From: Frigoribacterium faeni
GTDB taxonomy: Bacteria; Actinomycetota; Actinomycetes; Actinomycetales; Microbacteriaceae
Assembly (NCBI RefSeq): GCF_011761235.1
Contig: NZ_JAAOYW010000001.1
Location: 1,321,789 to 1,371,455 of the forward strand
Direction of reading: 5' to 3'
Length of the DNA: 49,667 nt
The notes under the pieces: generated by a model
Seen by the model: only the letters and a program-made list of their open reading frames with translations
Told to the model about the DNA's origin: nothing
Databases searched by the model: none
Made by a program: the position numbers and the translations under genes
Shown here: positions 14,534 to 21,515 of the stretch, piece after piece
How positions within the stretch are numbered: the stretch's first letter is position 1
Layout: the number at the start of each line of letters is the position of its first letter

Positions 14534-14593
14534 GAACCCCGTTCCGTTCAAAGAACCACGTTGCACGGTGGTTCTTTGAACGGAACGGGGTTC
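14534..14593. repeat. 60-bp perfect hairpin family H6, copy 1
   Basis: Two 26-bp arms (14534-14559 and 14568-14593) are exact reverse complements, 8-nt loop. The right edge overlaps the stop codon of the AbiEi/DUF559 gene (14592-14594). Begins GAACCCCGTTCCGTTCAAAG. A second copy with identical arms and a different loop is at 15736-15795. Confidence 0.85.
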
Positions 14594-15735: not shown

Positions 15736-15795
15736 GAACCCCGTTCCGTTCAAAGAACCACGAAGGAACGTGGTTCTTTGAACGGAACGGGGTTC
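15736..15795. repeat. 60-bp perfect hairpin family H6, copy 2
   Basis: Arms 15736-15761 and 15770-15795 are identical to those of copy 1; only the 8-nt loop differs. It lies between the stop of the APC permease (15831, minus strand) and the start of the AbiEi/DUF559 gene (15638), where a terminator of the permease would be expected. Confidence 0.85.
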
Positions 15796-15830: not shown

Positions 15831-17816
15831 CTAACTGACGTGCACGTCGGGGCGGCGCGAGCGGTGCGGCTCCGCCTGCCGCAGCACCTCGCGCGTCACG
15901 GGCGCCACCTCGCCGGCCCCCGTCACGAGGAACCGCCCCATGTTCGACAGCGGGCTGCCCTCGGTCCACTCGAAGTAGACGTCGGGCACGACCCCGGTCT
16001 CGTCGCGCACCGCGAGCAGCACCGAGGCGATCGTGTTCGGCACGGCCCCGCTCGTCACCCGGAGCACGCGGTAGCCGTGCACGACGCAGCCGGTGACGAC
16101 GAGGTCCTCCTCGAAGTCGGACGAGTCGCCGGGGTGCACCTCGAGGAAGATCACGGGCGACCGCTGCGGGATGCCGCTGTACTTGCGCTCCGCGCTGAGC
16201 TTCTTCTTGTAGATCTCGGCGACCTCGCGGCCCGGCTCGTGGGCGATGACGCGGATCGAGCCGTACTCGTCGGCGTCCTCGCGCACGTAGCCGAGCGCCG
16301 TGTCGTCGAACGAGATCGACGTCGCGCGCAGCTGGAAGGACCGCCGCACCCGCGAGACCAGCGACACCGCCATGATGCCGACGATGAAGATCGCGGCGAT
16401 GCGGACGCCGTCGGGCCGCTCGACCACGTTGACGACGGTCGTGTAGACGAACACGAGCGCGATGACGCCGAAGGCGACGGTCCGCTTGCGCTGGCGCGCA
16501 CGTCGCGCCGAGAGCGTGACGGCCACGGAGGCGCTGGTGATCAGCACGAGCACTCCCGTCGCGTAGGCCCCGCCCTGGGCGTCCACGTCGGCGTCGAACA
16601 CGATGGTGATGACGAACGCGATCGCGGTGAAGACCAGCACGAGCGGCCGCACCGCCCGGGCCCACTGCGGCGCCATGCCGTAGCGGGGCAGGTAGCGCGG
16701 CACGATGTTGAGCAGGCCGGCCATCGCGGAGGCGCCCGCGAACCACAGGATGCAGATCGTCGCGACGTCGTAGAGGGTGCCGAACCCGTCGCCCAGGTAG
16801 GCGTGCGCGAGGTAGGCGAGGGCACGGCCGTTCGCCTCGCCTCCTGCCTGGAACTCCTCCTGCGGGATCAGCAGCGTCGTCGCGAAGCTCGACAGGATGA
16901 GGAACGAGCTCATGATGATGGCGGCCGACGTCAGGAGGCGACGTGCGCCGCGGATGCGCCCGACCGGCTGCTGCGGGGTGTCGCTCGCGTCGCCGGTGAT
17001 CTGCGGCATGACGGCGACGCCGGTCTCGAAGCCGGACAGGCCGAGCGCCAGCTTCGGGAACACGATCAGGGCGATGCCGACCATCACGAGCGGGTTGCCG
17101 TGCTGCACGGTGAGCGCCTGCCACCAGTCGCCGATGACGACCGGGTTCTCGGCGACGTGGGCGAGCGACACGGCGATCACGACGAGGTTGAGCGCCAGGA
17201 ACACGCCGACCAGGACGACGGCGATGCCGATCGCCTCCTTGAACCCGCGCAGGAACACGGCGGCCAGCAGCGCGACGAGGAACAGCGTGAGCGGCACCTC
17301 CGCCCCGTGGAACCAGGCGGGCGCGAAGGGGTTCTCGACGGCGTGGGCGGTGGCGTCCGCCGCCGACAGCGTGATGGTGATCATGAAGTCGGTCGCGGCG
17401 AAGCCGAGCAGCACGAGCACGAACACCTTGCCGCCCCACCAGGGCAGCAGCCGCTCGAGCATCGCGATCGAGCCCTCGCCGCGGGGGCTCTCGCGGGCGA
17501 CGCGCCGGTACACCGGCAGGGCGCCGAACAGCGTCAGCAGCACGAGCACGATGGTCGCGAGCGGCGACAGCAGGCCGGCCGCGACGGCGGCGATCGCCGG
17601 CTGGTAGCCGAGGGTCGAGAAGTAGTCGACGCCGGTGAGGCACATCACGCGCCACCACGAGTGCGTCTTCTCGACGGTGCTGGCGTGGGGGCCCTGGTGG
17701 GCGCCGCTGTTCTCGGTGAGGCCGCCCAGCAGCCAGCCACGGAGGCGCGATCCCGACGTGCGGGAGAGCTGCGGTTCCAGCGCGTCGGCGTCGCGCTGCT
17801 CGGACGTCGTGGACAC
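15831..17816 (-). CDS. APC superfamily permease, probable potassium transporter
   Basis: 661 residues with about 12 transmembrane segments over residues ~50-480 and a ~180-residue cytosolic C-terminal domain. The first segment carries [17 protein letters not shown], typical for this actinobacterial APC branch, and [16 protein letters not shown] is the usual unwound-helix GFE region. Annotations of relatives usually read amino-acid permease, but the architecture (APC core plus long cytosolic tail) resembles KimA-type K+ importers. Its place directly downstream of kdpE, with a shared upstream operator-like element, makes K+ transport my preferred inference; amino-acid uptake remains possible. 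Start ATG 17816 gives a short acidic/polar N-tail before the membrane. Confidence 0.85.
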
Positions 17817-17900
17817 GGTGACCTCTCGTCGCTCGTCGCGCTCGGGACGGCACGACGGAGCAACGGTACGCCCGCCGCGACGCCGTCAGGGGCGTCGGGC

Positions 17901-17922
17901 GTAAGGATGTCGTGAGGATGTC
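17901..17922 (-). promoter_or_regulatory. tandem 11-bp repeat, candidate KdpE site for the permease
   Basis: On the plus strand GTAAGGATGTC is followed immediately by GTGAGGATGTC: two direct 11-bp repeats, the spacing expected for an OmpR-family response regulator dimer. It lies 85-106 bp upstream of the permease start. A very similar double repeat precedes kdpE at 18746-18767. Regulation by KdpE is inferred. Confidence 0.55.
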
Positions 17923-17995
17923 GCGCGGCGGCGCGGCGAGCCCCGCCTGCGGGGTCTCGACCCGCGGCGCAGCCCGGCACCCAGGCGACCGGTGC

Positions 17996-18691
17996 TCAGG
18001 AGGCGGGGGCGCCTCCGTCCGGCACGAAGCGGTAGCCCATGCCCAGCTCGGTGACGAGGTAGCGCGGCTCGGCCGGCACGGGCTCGAGCTTCTTGCGCAG
18101 CTGGGCGAAGTAGAGGCGGAGGTAGCCGGTGTCCTTCGCGTGGAACGCGCCCCACACCTGCGTCAGCAGCGTCTCGCGCGTGACGAGCTTGCCCGGGCTC
18201 TGCAGCAGCAGCTCGAGCACGCGCCACTCGGTCGGCGTGAGCCGCACCACCTCGCCGGCGCGGACGACGGTCGTCGCCGACAGGTCGACCCGCACGTCGC
18301 CGAACTCGACGACCGGCGAGTCGTCGTCGCCCGGCGCGAGGCGGCGGGTGAGGGCGCGGATGCGGGCGAGCAGCTCCTCCATGGCGAACGGCTTGGTCAC
18401 GTAGTCGTCGGCGCCCGCGTCGAGCGCCTCGACCTTGTCGGCGGCGTCGGTGCGTCCCGAGACGACGAGCACGGGGGCCGTCGACCAACCGCGCAGGCCC
18501 GCGATCACCTCGACGCCGTCGAGCCGCGGCATGCCGAGGTCGAGCATGACGAGGTCGGGGTGCTGCGTCATCGCGAGGTCGAGCGCCTCTCGACCGTCGG
18601 CCGCGGTCACGATCTCGTAGCCGTGGGCGCCGAGGGTCACCTTGAGCGCCCGCAGGATCTGCGGGTCGTCGTCGGCGATCAGGATCTTCAC
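17996..18691 (-). CDS. kdpE: OmpR/PhoB-family response regulator KdpE
   Basis: 231 residues. Receiver domain residues 1-115 with acidic pocket DDD at 7-9, phospho-acceptor D51 (VMLD) and the switch lysine in YVTKPF; winged-helix output domain from ~residue 125 (VVRLTPTEWRVLELLLQSPGKLVTRETLLTQVWG... YLRLYFAQLRKKLE ... MGYRF). The YLRLYFAQLRKKLEP form of the recognition region and partner KdpD are characteristic of KdpE. KdpD phosphorylates it and it controls potassium uptake genes. It is separated from the upstream kdpD by 229 bp holding its own candidate operator, so it is probably transcribed from its own promoter. No kdpFABC genes are present here. Confidence 0.93.
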   Translation of the reverse strand: MKILIADDDPQILRALKVTLGAHGYEIVTAADGREALDLAMTQHPDLVMLDLGMPRLDGVEVIAGLRGWSTAPVLVVSGRTDAADKVEALDAGADDYVTKPFAMEELLARIRALTRRLAPGDDDSPVVEFGDVRVDLSATTVVRAGEVVRLTPTEWRVLELLLQSPGKLVTRETLLTQVWGAFHAKDTGYLRLYFAQLRKKLEPVPAEPRYLVTELGMGYRFVPDGGAPAS

Positions 18692-18745
18692 GTGCCCTCC
18701 TCGACGACGGTACCGCCCCGAGGAGGCGCGGCGCAGGCCCCCGGC

Positions 18746-18767
18746 GTAGGGATCCCGTCAGGATGCG
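18746..18767 (-). promoter_or_regulatory. tandem 11-bp repeat, candidate KdpE autoregulatory site
   Basis: Plus strand reads GTAGGGATCCC then GTCAGGATGCG, 55-76 bp upstream of kdpE. Over the 25-nt element including the next GCC, 19 positions match the element upstream of the permease (17901-17922 and flank). Two matching elements at two genes of one pathway favour a real operator. Confidence 0.55.
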
Positions 18768-18920
18768 GCGCGAGCCCCCGGCGCCGTGGCTGAGGCCGTG
18801 GCTGAGGCCGGGGCTGCGGGCCCGCGCCGGGCGGACGCCGGTTCCGCGATCCAGGAACCCGGCCGCCCGCGCTGCTGGACCGTGCACGGCTCAGGACCGA
18901 GCGTCCGATCCGGGCACGGA

Positions 18921-21515
18921 TCAGGACGCGGGTTCCTGAACGAGGAGAGCGGCGACGGGGGCCTCGGGGAGCGAGACGACCATCGTGAGGCCGCCGCCCG
19001 GGGTGTCGTCGAGCGACAGGGTGCCGCCCATCGCCTCGACGAAGCCCTTGCTCAGGGCCAGTCCGAGGCCGAGGCCGGTCGCGTTGTCGGTGTCGCCGAG
19101 CCGCTGGAACGCCACCATGATCTCGTCCCGGCGCTCGGGGGGCACGCCCGGTCCGCGGTCGACGACCCGCACCTCCACCCGGCCCCCGAAGCCGCTCGTC
19201 GAGATGCGCACGAGGGTGCCGTCGGGCGAGTGGCGCAGGGCGTTGTCGAGCAGGTTGACGAGCACCCGCTGCAGCAGCACGGCGTCGGCGAGCACGGGCG
19301 GCACGGAGGTGCGCAGGGCGAGCTCGACGTCGGCGGGGCCCAGCCCGAGCTCGTCGAGCGTACCGAGCACCACGTCGTCGACGTCGACCACGGCGGTCGT
19401 CACGGCGAGCGCGCCTGCCTGCACGCGGCTGACGTCGAGCAGGTTGGTGACGAGCGTCGACAGCGACTCGAGGCTCTCCCACGCGGTGGCGAGCAGCTCG
19501 TCGCGGTCGGCGTCGCTCCACTCGACGTCCTGCTGGCGGAGGCCGCTCACGGAGGCGGTCGCGGCGGCGAGCGGACGGCGCAGGTCGTGCCCGACGGCGG
19601 CGAGCAGGGCGCTGCGCATCCGGTCGACCTCGGCGAGCGGCGCCACCTGGCCGGCGGCCCTCGTCAGCGCGGAGTGCTCGAGGGCGGCCTCGACCTGGGC
19701 GGCGACGACGGCGAGGAGGCGTCGGTCGCCCGCCTGCAGCGGCTCGCCCGTCAGCTCGAGCACGCCGTCGTCGCCGGCGGGCAGGGTCGTCACGCCCACG
19801 CCCACGCCAGCGCCAGCGCCCGAGCCCGCGCCCGCGCCCGAGCCCGTGCCCGTGCCCGTGCCTGCGCCCGCGCCCGGCCCCGCGCCGGCTCCCCCGTCGG
19901 CCCCGCTGTCGCCCAGCACCTCGTCGCCCGACAGCACGCGCACGCGCGTCAGCCCGAAGGCCTCGCGGGTGCGGGCGACGAGCGCCTGCAGCGCGTCCTG
20001 CCCGCGCAGCACGCTGCCCGACACGGTGGCGAGCAGCTCGGTCTCGGCGAGGGCGCGTGCTGCCGCCCGGCTGCGCCGGGCCGCCTGGTCGACGACCCAG
20101 CTGACGATGGCGGCGTTGAGCACGTAGAGCACGAGCGCCAGCAGGTGCAGCGGCTCGGCGATGGTCACGCTGTAGATCGGCGCGATGAAGAACAGGTCGA
20201 GCGTCACGCCCGAGAGCAGCGCGGCGAAGAGCGCCGGCCAGACCCCGCCCGTCACCGCCACCACGACGACCAGCAGCTGGAACAGCAGCACGGTGCCCGC
20301 GATGCCGTCCTCGCTGCGGTGGTCGGCGAGCAGCCAGGTGAGCAGCGGGCCGACGACCGCGGCGAGCACGAAGCCGGCCGCGACGCGCGAGCGGGACAGC
20401 GCCCCGCCGAGCTTCGGCAGCGACCAGCCCCGCCCCGCGGCCGAGTGCGTGACGATGTGCACGTCGAGCTGCCCCGACTCGCGGATGACCGTCGCCCCGA
20501 TGCCCGGCCCGCTGACCAGCGAGGCCAGTCGGCCGCGTCGGCTGACGCCGATGACCAGCTGGGAGGCGTCGGCCCCCTTGGCGAAGTCGACCAGCGCCCG
20601 CGGCACGTCCGACCCCACGACCTGGTGGTAGCTGCCGCCGAGCTTCTCGACCAGGGCGCGCTGCGCGGCGAGGGCGCCGGGGGCGCCCTGGCGGAGGCCG
20701 TCGGGCGTGCTGACGTGCACGGCGACGAGCTCGCCGCCGGCGCTGCGGGCCGCGATGCGCGCGGCGCGACGGATCAGCGTCTCGCCCTCCGCGCCTCCGG
20801 TGAGGGCCACGACGACGCGCTCCCTGGCCTCCCAGGCGCTGTCGATGCCGTGCTCGACGCGGTAGGCGCGCAGGGCGCTGTCGACCTCGTCGGCGAGCCA
20901 CAGCAGGGCGAGCTCGCGCAGCGCGGTGAGGTTGCCGAGGCGGAAGTAGTTCGACAGCGCGGCGTCGACCCGCGCCGCCGGGTAGACGTCGCCGGCCGCG
21001 AGCCGGTCGCGCAGGGCCTGCGGGGCGAGGTCGACGACCTCGATCTGGTCGGCCCCCCGCAGCACCGAGTCGGGCACCGTCTCGCGCTGGGCGGCCCCGG
21101 TGATCTGCTCGACGACGTCGGCGAGGGACTCGACGTGCTGCACGTTGACGGTCGAGACGACCGAGATGCCGGCCTCGAGCAGCGCCTGCACGTCGCGCCA
21201 CCGCTTGTCGTGGCGGGCGCCCGGGGCGTTGCTGTGCGCGAGCTCGTCGACGAGGGCGACCTGCGGCGCCCGGGCGAGCACCGCCTCCAGGTCCATCTCG
21301 TCGAGCTCGACGCCGCGGTGCACGTGCACGGCACGCGGCACCACCTCGAGGTCGCCGAGCCGGGCGGCGGTGGCGGCCCGGCCGTGGGTCTCGACGACGG
21401 CGACGACGACGTCCTTGCCCTCGTCGCGCAGGCGCGCGCCCTCCTCGAGCATGGTGAAGGTCTTGCCGACGCCGGGGGCGGCGCCGAGCAGCACCCGCAG
21501 TCGCCCTCGTGTCAT
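18921..21515 (-). CDS. kdpD: osmosensitive K+ channel sensor histidine kinase KdpD
   Basis: 864 residues from ATG 21515; the longer ORF reading into the tRNA is not real. Order: KdpD sensor domain beginning MTRGRLRVLLGAAPGVGKT (Walker A-like, residues 11-19), a universal-stress-protein domain, four transmembrane helices (DUF4118) around residues 370-470, a GAF-like region, then HisKA with H643 in GHDLRRPLA and HATPase with NLLDNALRHSP, DRGPGVPPE and GLGLGLALSKG. It senses low K+/ionic stress at the membrane and phosphorylates KdpE. Odd feature: a ~35-residue Gly-Ala/Gly-Thr/Gly-Ser string (19797-19905) inside the GAF-like region, a coding microsatellite. tRNA-Ser(GCU) and a strong terminator lie upstream. 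Confidence 0.95.
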   Translation of the reverse strand: MTRGRLRVLLGAAPGVGKTFTMLEEGARLRDEGKDVVVAVVETHGRAATAARLGDLEVVPRAVHVHRGVELDEMDLEAVLARAPQVALVDELAHSNAPGARHDKRWRDVQALLEAGISVVSTVNVQHVESLADVVEQITGAAQRETVPDSVLRGADQIEVVDLAPQALRDRLAAGDVYPAARVDAALSNYFRLGNLTALRELALLWLADEVDSALRAYRVEHGIDSAWEARERVVVALTGGAEGETLIRRAARIAARSAGGELVAVHVSTPDGLRQGAPGALAAQRALVEKLGGSYHQVVGSDVPRALVDFAKGADASQLVIGVSRRGRLASLVSGPGIGATVIRESGQLDVHIVTHSAAGRGWSLPKLGGALSRSRVAAGFVLAAVVGPLLTWLLADHRSEDGIAGTVLLFQLLVVVVAVTGGVWPALFAALLSGVTLDLFFIAPIYSVTIAEPLHLLALVLYVLNAAIVSWVVDQAARRSRAAARALAETELLATVSGSVLRGQDALQALVARTREAFGLTRVRVLSGDEVLGDSGADGGAGAGPGAGAGTGTGTGSGAGAGSGAGAGVGVGVTTLPAGDDGVLELTGEPLQAGDRRLLAVVAAQVEAALEHSALTRAAGQVAPLAEVDRMRSALLAAVGHDLRRPLAAATASVSGLRQQDVEWSDADRDELLATAWESLESLSTLVTNLLDVSRVQAGALAVTTAVVDVDDVVLGTLDELGLGPADVELALRTSVPPVLADAVLLQRVLVNLLDNALRHSPDGTLVRISTSGFGGRVEVRVVDRGPGVPPERRDEIMVAFQRLGDTDNATGLGLGLALSKGFVEAMGGTLSLDDTPGGGLTMVVSLPEAPVAALLVQEPAS

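Follow-up and report, generated by a model that had tools for sequence, protein, structure and literature searches.

A proposed tandem KdpE operator at kdpFABC and at the gene for a probable KimA-like permease in Frigoribacterium faeni

Introduction

KdpE is usually described as the regulator of one operon. The 49,667-nucleotide stretch of the Frigoribacterium faeni genome analysed here (the window; C1:1321789-1371455 of a 3.2-Mb genome) carries kdpD, then kdpE, then a gene for a 661-residue permease on its minus strand, without kdpFABC, and raises the question of what this KdpDE pair controls. A preliminary description of the window had proposed that KdpDE drives the permease, as a KimA-like potassium importer, instead of KdpFABC, through a tandem operator shared by the permease and kdpE. 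The answer favored by the present sequence comparisons, to which we give a probability of roughly 0.7, is that a single KdpDE pair controls both the Kdp pump and a second K+ importer, probably a KimA-like symporter, the latter being an added output and not an alternative one. Coordinates are window positions unless marked C1 or L-numbered, and statements on published work refer to the accessible portions of the cited papers.

Results

The tandem element and the kdp genes of the genome

Two pairs of direct 11-bp repeats are present on the plus strand, at 17901-17922 (GTAAGGATGTC GTGAGGATGTC), 85-106 bp upstream of the permease start at 17816, and at 18746-18767 (GTAGGGATCCC GTCAGGATGCG), 55-76 bp upstream of the kdpE start at 18691. 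These repeats, like kdpD, kdpE and the permease gene, lie exactly where the preliminary description had placed them, and the two 25-mers containing them agree at 19 of 25 positions when compared by eye, as it had counted. Its half-site, GT-x-x-GGAT-x-x-C, fits three of the four half-sites and fails for the remaining one. The pattern GTNNGGATNNNGTNNGGAT has exactly two perfect matches in the whole genome, namely the two window elements, and at up to two mismatches it has 87 matches compared to 21 for the reversed pattern used as a control. A refined pattern, TCCTNACGNNNTCCYNACG, likewise finds only these two elements as perfect matches, with 37 matches at up to two mismatches and 8 for its reversed control. 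Scanning the genome, as had been proposed, sets the window pair apart as the sole perfect matches and shows the element to exceed chance expectation.

The regulatory proteins have the domains expected of KdpD (sensor, Usp, DUF4118 and kinase domains) and of an OmpR-type KdpE with its DNA-reading stretches. The best PDB match of the window KdpE is E. coli KdpE (4kny, E 5e-60), whose recognition-helix and wing stretches are conserved in the alignment; R193, R200 and T215 of the E. coli protein are named in the accessible text of PMC3264566. The NCBIfam equivalog models for KdpE and KdpD are the top matches, yet fall under their curated cut-offs (227 of 325 and 474 of 1123 bits, respectively).

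A kdpA-kdpB-kdpC-kdpD operon is found at C1:1128-1136 kb, about 200 kb from the window (Pfam KdpA, P-type ATPase, KdpC and KdpD), and the small open reading frames (ORFs) before its kdpA include a likely kdpF. The description of a KdpD/KdpE pair without kdpFABC therefore holds within the window and not for the genome. The operon ends in a second kdpD (L002:2316-4817, minus strand; C1 about 1128.3-1130.8 kb), the product of which is 69% identical to the window KdpD. No kdpE adjoins this operon, and a convergent CorA-type gene comes next instead. When the genome was searched with the window KdpE, no second KdpE was found among 24 matches in all, the others being at most 42% identical. Since a single KdpE was found and the kdpFABC locus has no kdpE, KdpE most likely drives both loci, and the two KdpDs of this genome seem to share it. 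The two element copies upstream of kdpF have one and two mismatches to the refined pattern; the possibility raised earlier, of a kdpFABC elsewhere with stronger copies of the element, is thus borne out as to the operon and not as to the copies, which are weaker than those of the permease and kdpE.

Conservation and promoter geometry

Conservation was scored as matches to TCCNNACGNNNTCCNNACG with at most one mismatch. Upstream of kdpF, the box is present at 16 of 16 loci of the genus (shuffle mean 0.1, reversed pattern 0) and at 26 of 29 other loci of the family (shuffle mean 0.6, reversed 1). The kdpF boxes are all on one strand, 258-426 bp upstream of the kdpA start, with an additional box on the opposite strand in L075, and they are frequently doubled, with the copies 32 bp apart. 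Upstream of the permease, 16 of 16 genus loci again carry the box, 12 of them perfectly (shuffle mean 0.2, reversed 0), so that the absence of conservation in related genomes, which the preliminary description had named as refuting its proposal, clearly does not hold within the genus. Outside the genus the box was found in 11 of 71 permease upstream regions (6 perfect; shuffle mean 0.3, reversed 2), and the addition of L036 and L182, both with a perfect box, brings this to 13 of 72 loci. Left out of these 72 are the partial permease matches G101, G022 and G047, the locus in G044, and two permeases that are transcribed divergently from kdpF, one in L074 with no copies better than 2 mismatches and one in L075 with 1-mismatch copies. 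The boxed permeases belong to seven other genera (L031-L033; L035 and L046; L036, L038 and L039; L037; L175; L178 and L182; L192), and the box orientation is opposite in L031-L033, L036, L038 and L039.

In all 16 genus promoters, a single TANNNT hexamer is present in the 70 nt downstream of the permease box, and its first base is 31 or 32 nt from the box. The kdpE box, at -72, is present in 8 of 14 testable genus loci, with a TANNNT spacing of 32 nt in all eight; this count excludes L059 and L066, and by position G204 (L059) has a kdpE box. As 6 of the 14 loci are without it, the kdpE copy is less conserved than the permease copy. A box placed 31-32 nt upstream of a TANNNT -10 at both the permease and kdpE suggests that KdpE acts as an activator just upstream of the -35. 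The features of the window are listed in Table 1.

By eye, many family loci share a conserved GTGTYTACT/GTGTTGACT element before kdpF, about 22 nt downstream of the proximal box; it is perhaps the -35 of the kdpF promoter.

Table 1. Genes and proposed regulatory features at the kdpDE-permease locus of the window
Feature	Position	Strand	Basis
KimA-like APC-fold permease (probable), 661 aa, GTG start	15831..17816	-	ORF list
kdpE, OmpR/PhoB-family response regulator, 231 aa	17996..18691	-	Pfam PF00072 and PF00486
kdpD, sensor histidine kinase, 864 aa	18921..21515	-	KdpD, Usp, DUF4118, HisKA and HATPase domains
Candidate KdpE box of the permease, TCCTCACG-ACA-TCCTTACG, a pair of direct half-sites with 11-bp spacing	17900..17918	-	Pattern scans, conservation
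Candidate KdpE box of kdpE (proposed autoregulation), TCCTGACG-GGA-TCCCTACG	18745..18763	-	Pattern scans
Proposed -10-like hexamer TACCGT, 31 nt after the permease box	17863..17868	-	Conserved TANNNT spacing
Proposed -10-like hexamer TACCGT, 32 nt downstream of the kdpE box	18707..18712	-	Spacing in 8/8 loci with box

Relationship of the permease to KimA

The permease matches no Pfam family at E up to 10 and gave only an irrelevant sub-threshold match in NCBIfam; database entries for its relatives bear the names "APC family permease" or "amino acid transporter". Its sole sequence match in the PDB is KimA (phmmer E 8e-4; 9e-5 with residues 45-260 alone). KimA (YdaO) of Bacillus subtilis is a K+/H+ symporter of the KUP subfamily (PMC6994465, PMC10284832). 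The structure of the permease was modeled from a 42-row alignment (predicted local distance difference test, pLDDT, 67.6; predicted TM-score, pTM, 0.59), a single-sequence model (pLDDT 42.5) having been discarded. With this model as the query, Foldseek ranks 1 to 3 by E-value are KimA (E about 1e-10); the next matches, beginning at E 7e-7, are cation-chloride cotransporters and amino-acid transporters, whose TM-scores are no worse than those of KimA. Alignment by hhalign to a set of four KimA relatives, the first row of which is a close relative (E 4e-266 to KimA), gave 95.6% and E 1e-8 for residues 49-495; the number of effective sequences was low for the query and the KimA set alike. Identity of the permease to KimA is about 15-21%.

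Most functional residues of KimA have counterparts in the permease (numbered with M = 1; alignment numbering is one lower). By hhalign, KimA D36 and Y43 correspond to D64 and Y71, inside a common D-x-x-S-[ST]-x-x-Y pattern, and KimA D117, T121 and S125 correspond to D143, T147 and S151, three pairings that a second alignment also gives. KimA Y377 corresponds to Y418 in both the phmmer-based and the hhalign alignments, so that the K+-site and gate residues D36, Y43, T121 and Y377 are all present. T230 and E233 are paired with S261 and E264 by one alignment only, as hhalign shifts transmembrane helix 6 (TM6). The mapped residues are invariant in 42 of 42 alignment rows, except D143 (40 of 42). 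Changes of D36, Y43 and E233 in KimA abolish uptake (PMC6994465). Given this conservation of functional residues, K+ is a likely substrate, and the permease is probably a KimA-like K+ importer, acting as a K+/H+ symporter; the KimA likeness proposed in the preliminary description agrees with the best sequence and fold matches found here.

It is possible, though unlikely, that KdpE controls the permease and that its cargo is an amino acid or a polyamine, in an osmolyte or counter-ion role, rather than K+. The APC fold is consistent with such a cargo, as are the database name "amino acid transporter", the Foldseek matches to AdiC, ApcT and CAT structures with KimA-like TM-scores, and the presence of adeP among the direct targets of E. 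coli KdpE (PMC7657598). KimA is nevertheless ahead by about four orders of magnitude in Foldseek E-value and is the only PDB sequence match, with most of its functional residues present, and the permease is linked to kdp genes in several actinobacterial genera, all of which argues for K+.

Distribution of perfect sites

Perfect TCCYNACGNNNTCCYNACG sites number 28 in 15 of the 16 genus genomes, with no control matches; by position, 12 belong to the permease, 8 to kdpE, 6 to kdpF and 2 to corA-type genes. Family-wide, 76 perfect sites were found in 60 of 199 genomes, compared to 11 reversed-control matches. Such sites are present in 53 of 106 genomes with KdpD and in 7 of 93 without it (Fisher p 1.8e-11, phylogeny ignored), while the control matches split 8 to 3. 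Two of the seven KdpD-negative genomes with a site, G130 and G170, have the box at a permease and only a partial kdpA, and their assemblies may therefore simply lack KdpD. Of the 76 sites, 32 precede kdpA by position, 12 the permease and 3 kdpE, which leaves 29 at other places; 21 of the last group were read, and several are inside long ORFs (L315, L317, L318).

In Mycobacterium smegmatis, the KdpE site upstream of kdpF is 22 bp long and contains an 11-bp repeat, CCGTAAAGAAACCATCAAGGCC (PMC5401905). This site agrees with the reverse-strand consensus CGTNAGGA-N3-CGTNAGGA in 10 of 14 positions, the correct register giving the best fit, and 16 of 20,000 letter shuffles did equally well. Provided that the sequence is printed there as the coding strand, the site has the same strand relative to kdpF as the boxes described here. 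Its accessible text reports no noticeable similarity of the site to the KdpE sites then known. Taken together, the conservation at kdpF and the permease, the spacing, the link to KdpD and the fit of the M. smegmatis site strongly support reading the shared tandem element as an operator of KdpE, as the preliminary description had supposed.

Another OmpR-family regulator, of the MtrA, PhoP or RegX3 type, might own the box, with KdpE a bystander: the 24 matches to KdpE include further response regulators, and many OmpR-family proteins bind direct repeats. We consider this improbable, as perfect sites follow the presence of KdpD and are located at the permease as well as at kdpF and kdpE, and as the M. 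smegmatis KdpE site fits the consensus.

Boxes were also seen at other genes. KdpE-like boxes precede CorA-type genes (PF01544) in three genus genomes: a perfect box lies about 80 bp before the gene at L141:1501-1519 and about 470 bp before it at L159:1501-1519, and in the genome of the window two imperfect boxes 32 bp apart (L002:1440-1490) precede the gene at L002:1529-2296 (+), whose match to the CorA model is confined to the C-terminal part of that model. A CorA-like gene (40%) together with a 2-mismatch box is also present at a permease locus of Arthrobacter (L243). Among the 21 sites read elsewhere, three perfect boxes from three other genera stand about 40 nt before related proteins of about 157 residues (L300:1736, L301:1805, L311:1716); these proteins are 44-54% identical to each other and have no Pfam family. 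Two further imperfect boxes 32 bp apart, at L005:1470-1520 (C1:1414.7 kb), precede a gene for a serine hydrolase with a Beta-lactamase Pfam match (PF00144), with a divergent gene apparently also adjoining.

Arrangement of the locus in the genus

Both kdpA and the permease are present in each of the 16 Frigoribacterium genomes searched. At all 16 genus loci, kdpE precedes the permease in the same orientation (the L066 locus includes only the end of kdpE), and by position kdpA adjoins the permease in 5 of 16 genomes. Three fully read loci, L069 and L070 from the genus and L073 from another, have a contiguous kdpFABC-kdpDE-permease row.

This cluster in relatives could suggest that the permease box is a relic of an ancestral kdpFABC-kdpDE-permease arrangement and has no present role, which is very unlikely given that the box and its 31-32 nt spacing are kept in 16 of 16 genus loci despite diverged flanks, and that boxed permeases in other genera lie far from kdpA, more than 1 Mb away on the same contig (L035, L046) or on a different contig (L175). 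The reading of the preliminary description, with KdpFABC lost and the permease driven by KdpDE in its place, might be drawn from the window without kdpFABC and from kdpDE adjoining the permease at every genus locus and kdpA at only five, and is scarcely tenable with kdpFABC in the same genome and kdpA, preceded by the same box, in all 16 genus genomes.

Two side observations concern the window itself. At about 19790-19900 the window KdpD has a Gly/Ala/Thr-rich low-complexity insert (GAGAGPGAGAGTGTGTGSG...), which is mostly absent from the second KdpD. Two near-identical long palindromes, at 14536-14591 and 15738-15793, the latter just 3' of the permease, are possibly bidirectional terminators or members of a small repeat family.

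Wider distribution of the permease

A scan of named genomes confirmed at least 594 relatives of the permease. Among the matches listed, those at 87-97% identity are all from Frigoribacterium (5 loci), followed by Rathayibacter at 83%. Among the best 80 of the at least 594 relatives, 19 lie within about 5 kb of a kdp gene; the genera concerned are Frigoribacterium, Amnibacterium, Arthrobacter/Pseudarthrobacter, Streptacidiphilus and Streptomyces, and this count leaves out L228 and L246 (29-30% kdpB matches) and L238 (a lone reversed 55% regulator). In the 199 family genomes, 59 have both the permease and kdpA, 16 the permease only, 48 kdpA only and 76 neither (p 4e-8, phylogeny ignored); the 75 permease-bearing genomes do not include G047, which has a 37-residue fragment.

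Of 37 plasmid records with a permease relative, six were read for kdp neighbors. KdpD matches near these six permeases are only 28-34% and are kinase-domain matches. A Streptomyces erythrochromogenes plasmid (L324:6547-9906) carries the permease followed by a KdpE-like regulator (50-51% identical); a 1-mismatch box lies upstream of this permease, and no kdpFABC or kdpD match was found within 7 kb.

Riboswitch control was checked with Rfam at the gathering threshold, both in the window and at the kdpFABC locus, and only a tRNA was found. In Arthrobacter sp. Helios, kdp genes are reported to be induced under polyethylene glycol (PMC9608346). An "APC family permease", ArtHe_11200, which may or may not belong to the present family, is up 7-fold in the same report and was not used as evidence.

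Discussion

The computed element, its conservation, the promoter geometry, the link to KdpD-bearing genomes and the remote relationship to KimA can be accommodated in the following model. KdpD would sense K+ limitation or osmotic stress and phosphorylate KdpE, and phosphorylated KdpE would bind a tandem operator with 11-bp spacing, TCCTNACG-N3-TCCYNACG. The operator is proposed to serve three promoters, those of kdpFABC (two imperfect copies 32 bp apart), kdpE and the permease. A single starvation signal would then raise an ATP-driven pump and a cheaper H+-coupled importer together. We infer four of these steps in particular, namely the binding of KdpE, the activation by it, K+ as the substrate of the permease and the coupling to H+.

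Several observations weigh against this model. The link to the permease is not universal, with 59 of the 72 permease loci outside the genus lacking the box. As most permeases outside the genus are without it, KdpE control would be a property of some lineages, eight genera with that of the window included, and not of the whole family. Half of the genomes with KdpD have no perfect site, and 29 of the 76 perfect sites lie elsewhere, the reversed-control total being 11. None of the six plasmid copies read (Deinococcus, Thermus, Streptomyces) has a kdpFABC neighbor, and the five from Deinococcus and Thermus have no KdpE-like neighbor (over 35%) either. The likeness to KimA is remote, with an E of 0.07 for a 12-row profile and no Pfam family, and the 42-row permease profile found nothing in the PDB at E up to 1. 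The pLDDT of the permease model, only 67.6 overall, is under 50 over TM1, and Foldseek TM-scores give no separation, at 0.46 by query length for KimA and 0.43-0.45 for ApcT-type transporters. Lastly, hhalign misplaces TM6 relative to the alignment that pairs E233 with E264.

The proposed operator can be compared with known KdpE sites. E. coli KdpE also has direct half-sites 11 bp apart, TTTATA-N5-TTTACA, with a footprint from -72 to -50 (PMC3264566), although that motif is AT-rich, unlike the GC-rich consensus found here. With TANNNT taken as the -10, the permease box would lie at about -63 to -44, similar to the E. coli footprint. As to targets, the accessible text on M. smegmatis describes kdpFABC, with no KdpE binding seen at the kdpDE promoter (PMC5401905), and that on E. 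coli lists kdpABC together with adeP, uxaA and uxaC as the direct regulon and describes no second K+ importer (PMC7657598).

Like KimA, the permease has an APC/LeuT-type fold according to Foldseek and keeps the positions of D36, Y43, T121, S125 and Y377, and that of E233 by one alignment, while T230 of KimA is a serine. Both proteins appear to end in an alpha/beta domain, a likeness by position taken from the permease model. KimA itself is inactivated by cyclic di-AMP (PMC6994465, PMC10284832). In Streptomyces, KimA-like proteins 39-42% identical to KimA represent the same fold class in Actinomycetota (PMC10117811); the permease family is far more distant from KimA than these and is not named in the accessible text of that paper.

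Control of kdpFABC by KdpDE and transport by KimA are already known, and no link of KdpE to a KimA-like importer was found in the open-access literature searched, most subscription papers being outside that search. In more general terms, we hold with about equal belief and doubt that the KdpDE regulon of Actinomycetota is wider than the pump, with one operator in a strict geometry coupling the Kdp pump to an H+-driven importer of a new, unnamed KimA/KUP subfamily that is present in many actinobacterial genera and filed among the amino-acid permeases; in Frigoribacterium the importer, and not the pump, would be the constant neighbor of kdpDE, and the regulon may branch further to corA-type genes. 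The large "amino acid permease" family, of at least 594 relatives, would thereby gain a testable substrate, and the GC-rich KdpE consensus would be usable across at least one actinobacterial family. If the proposal is true, one sensor would control two energetically different routes of K+ uptake.

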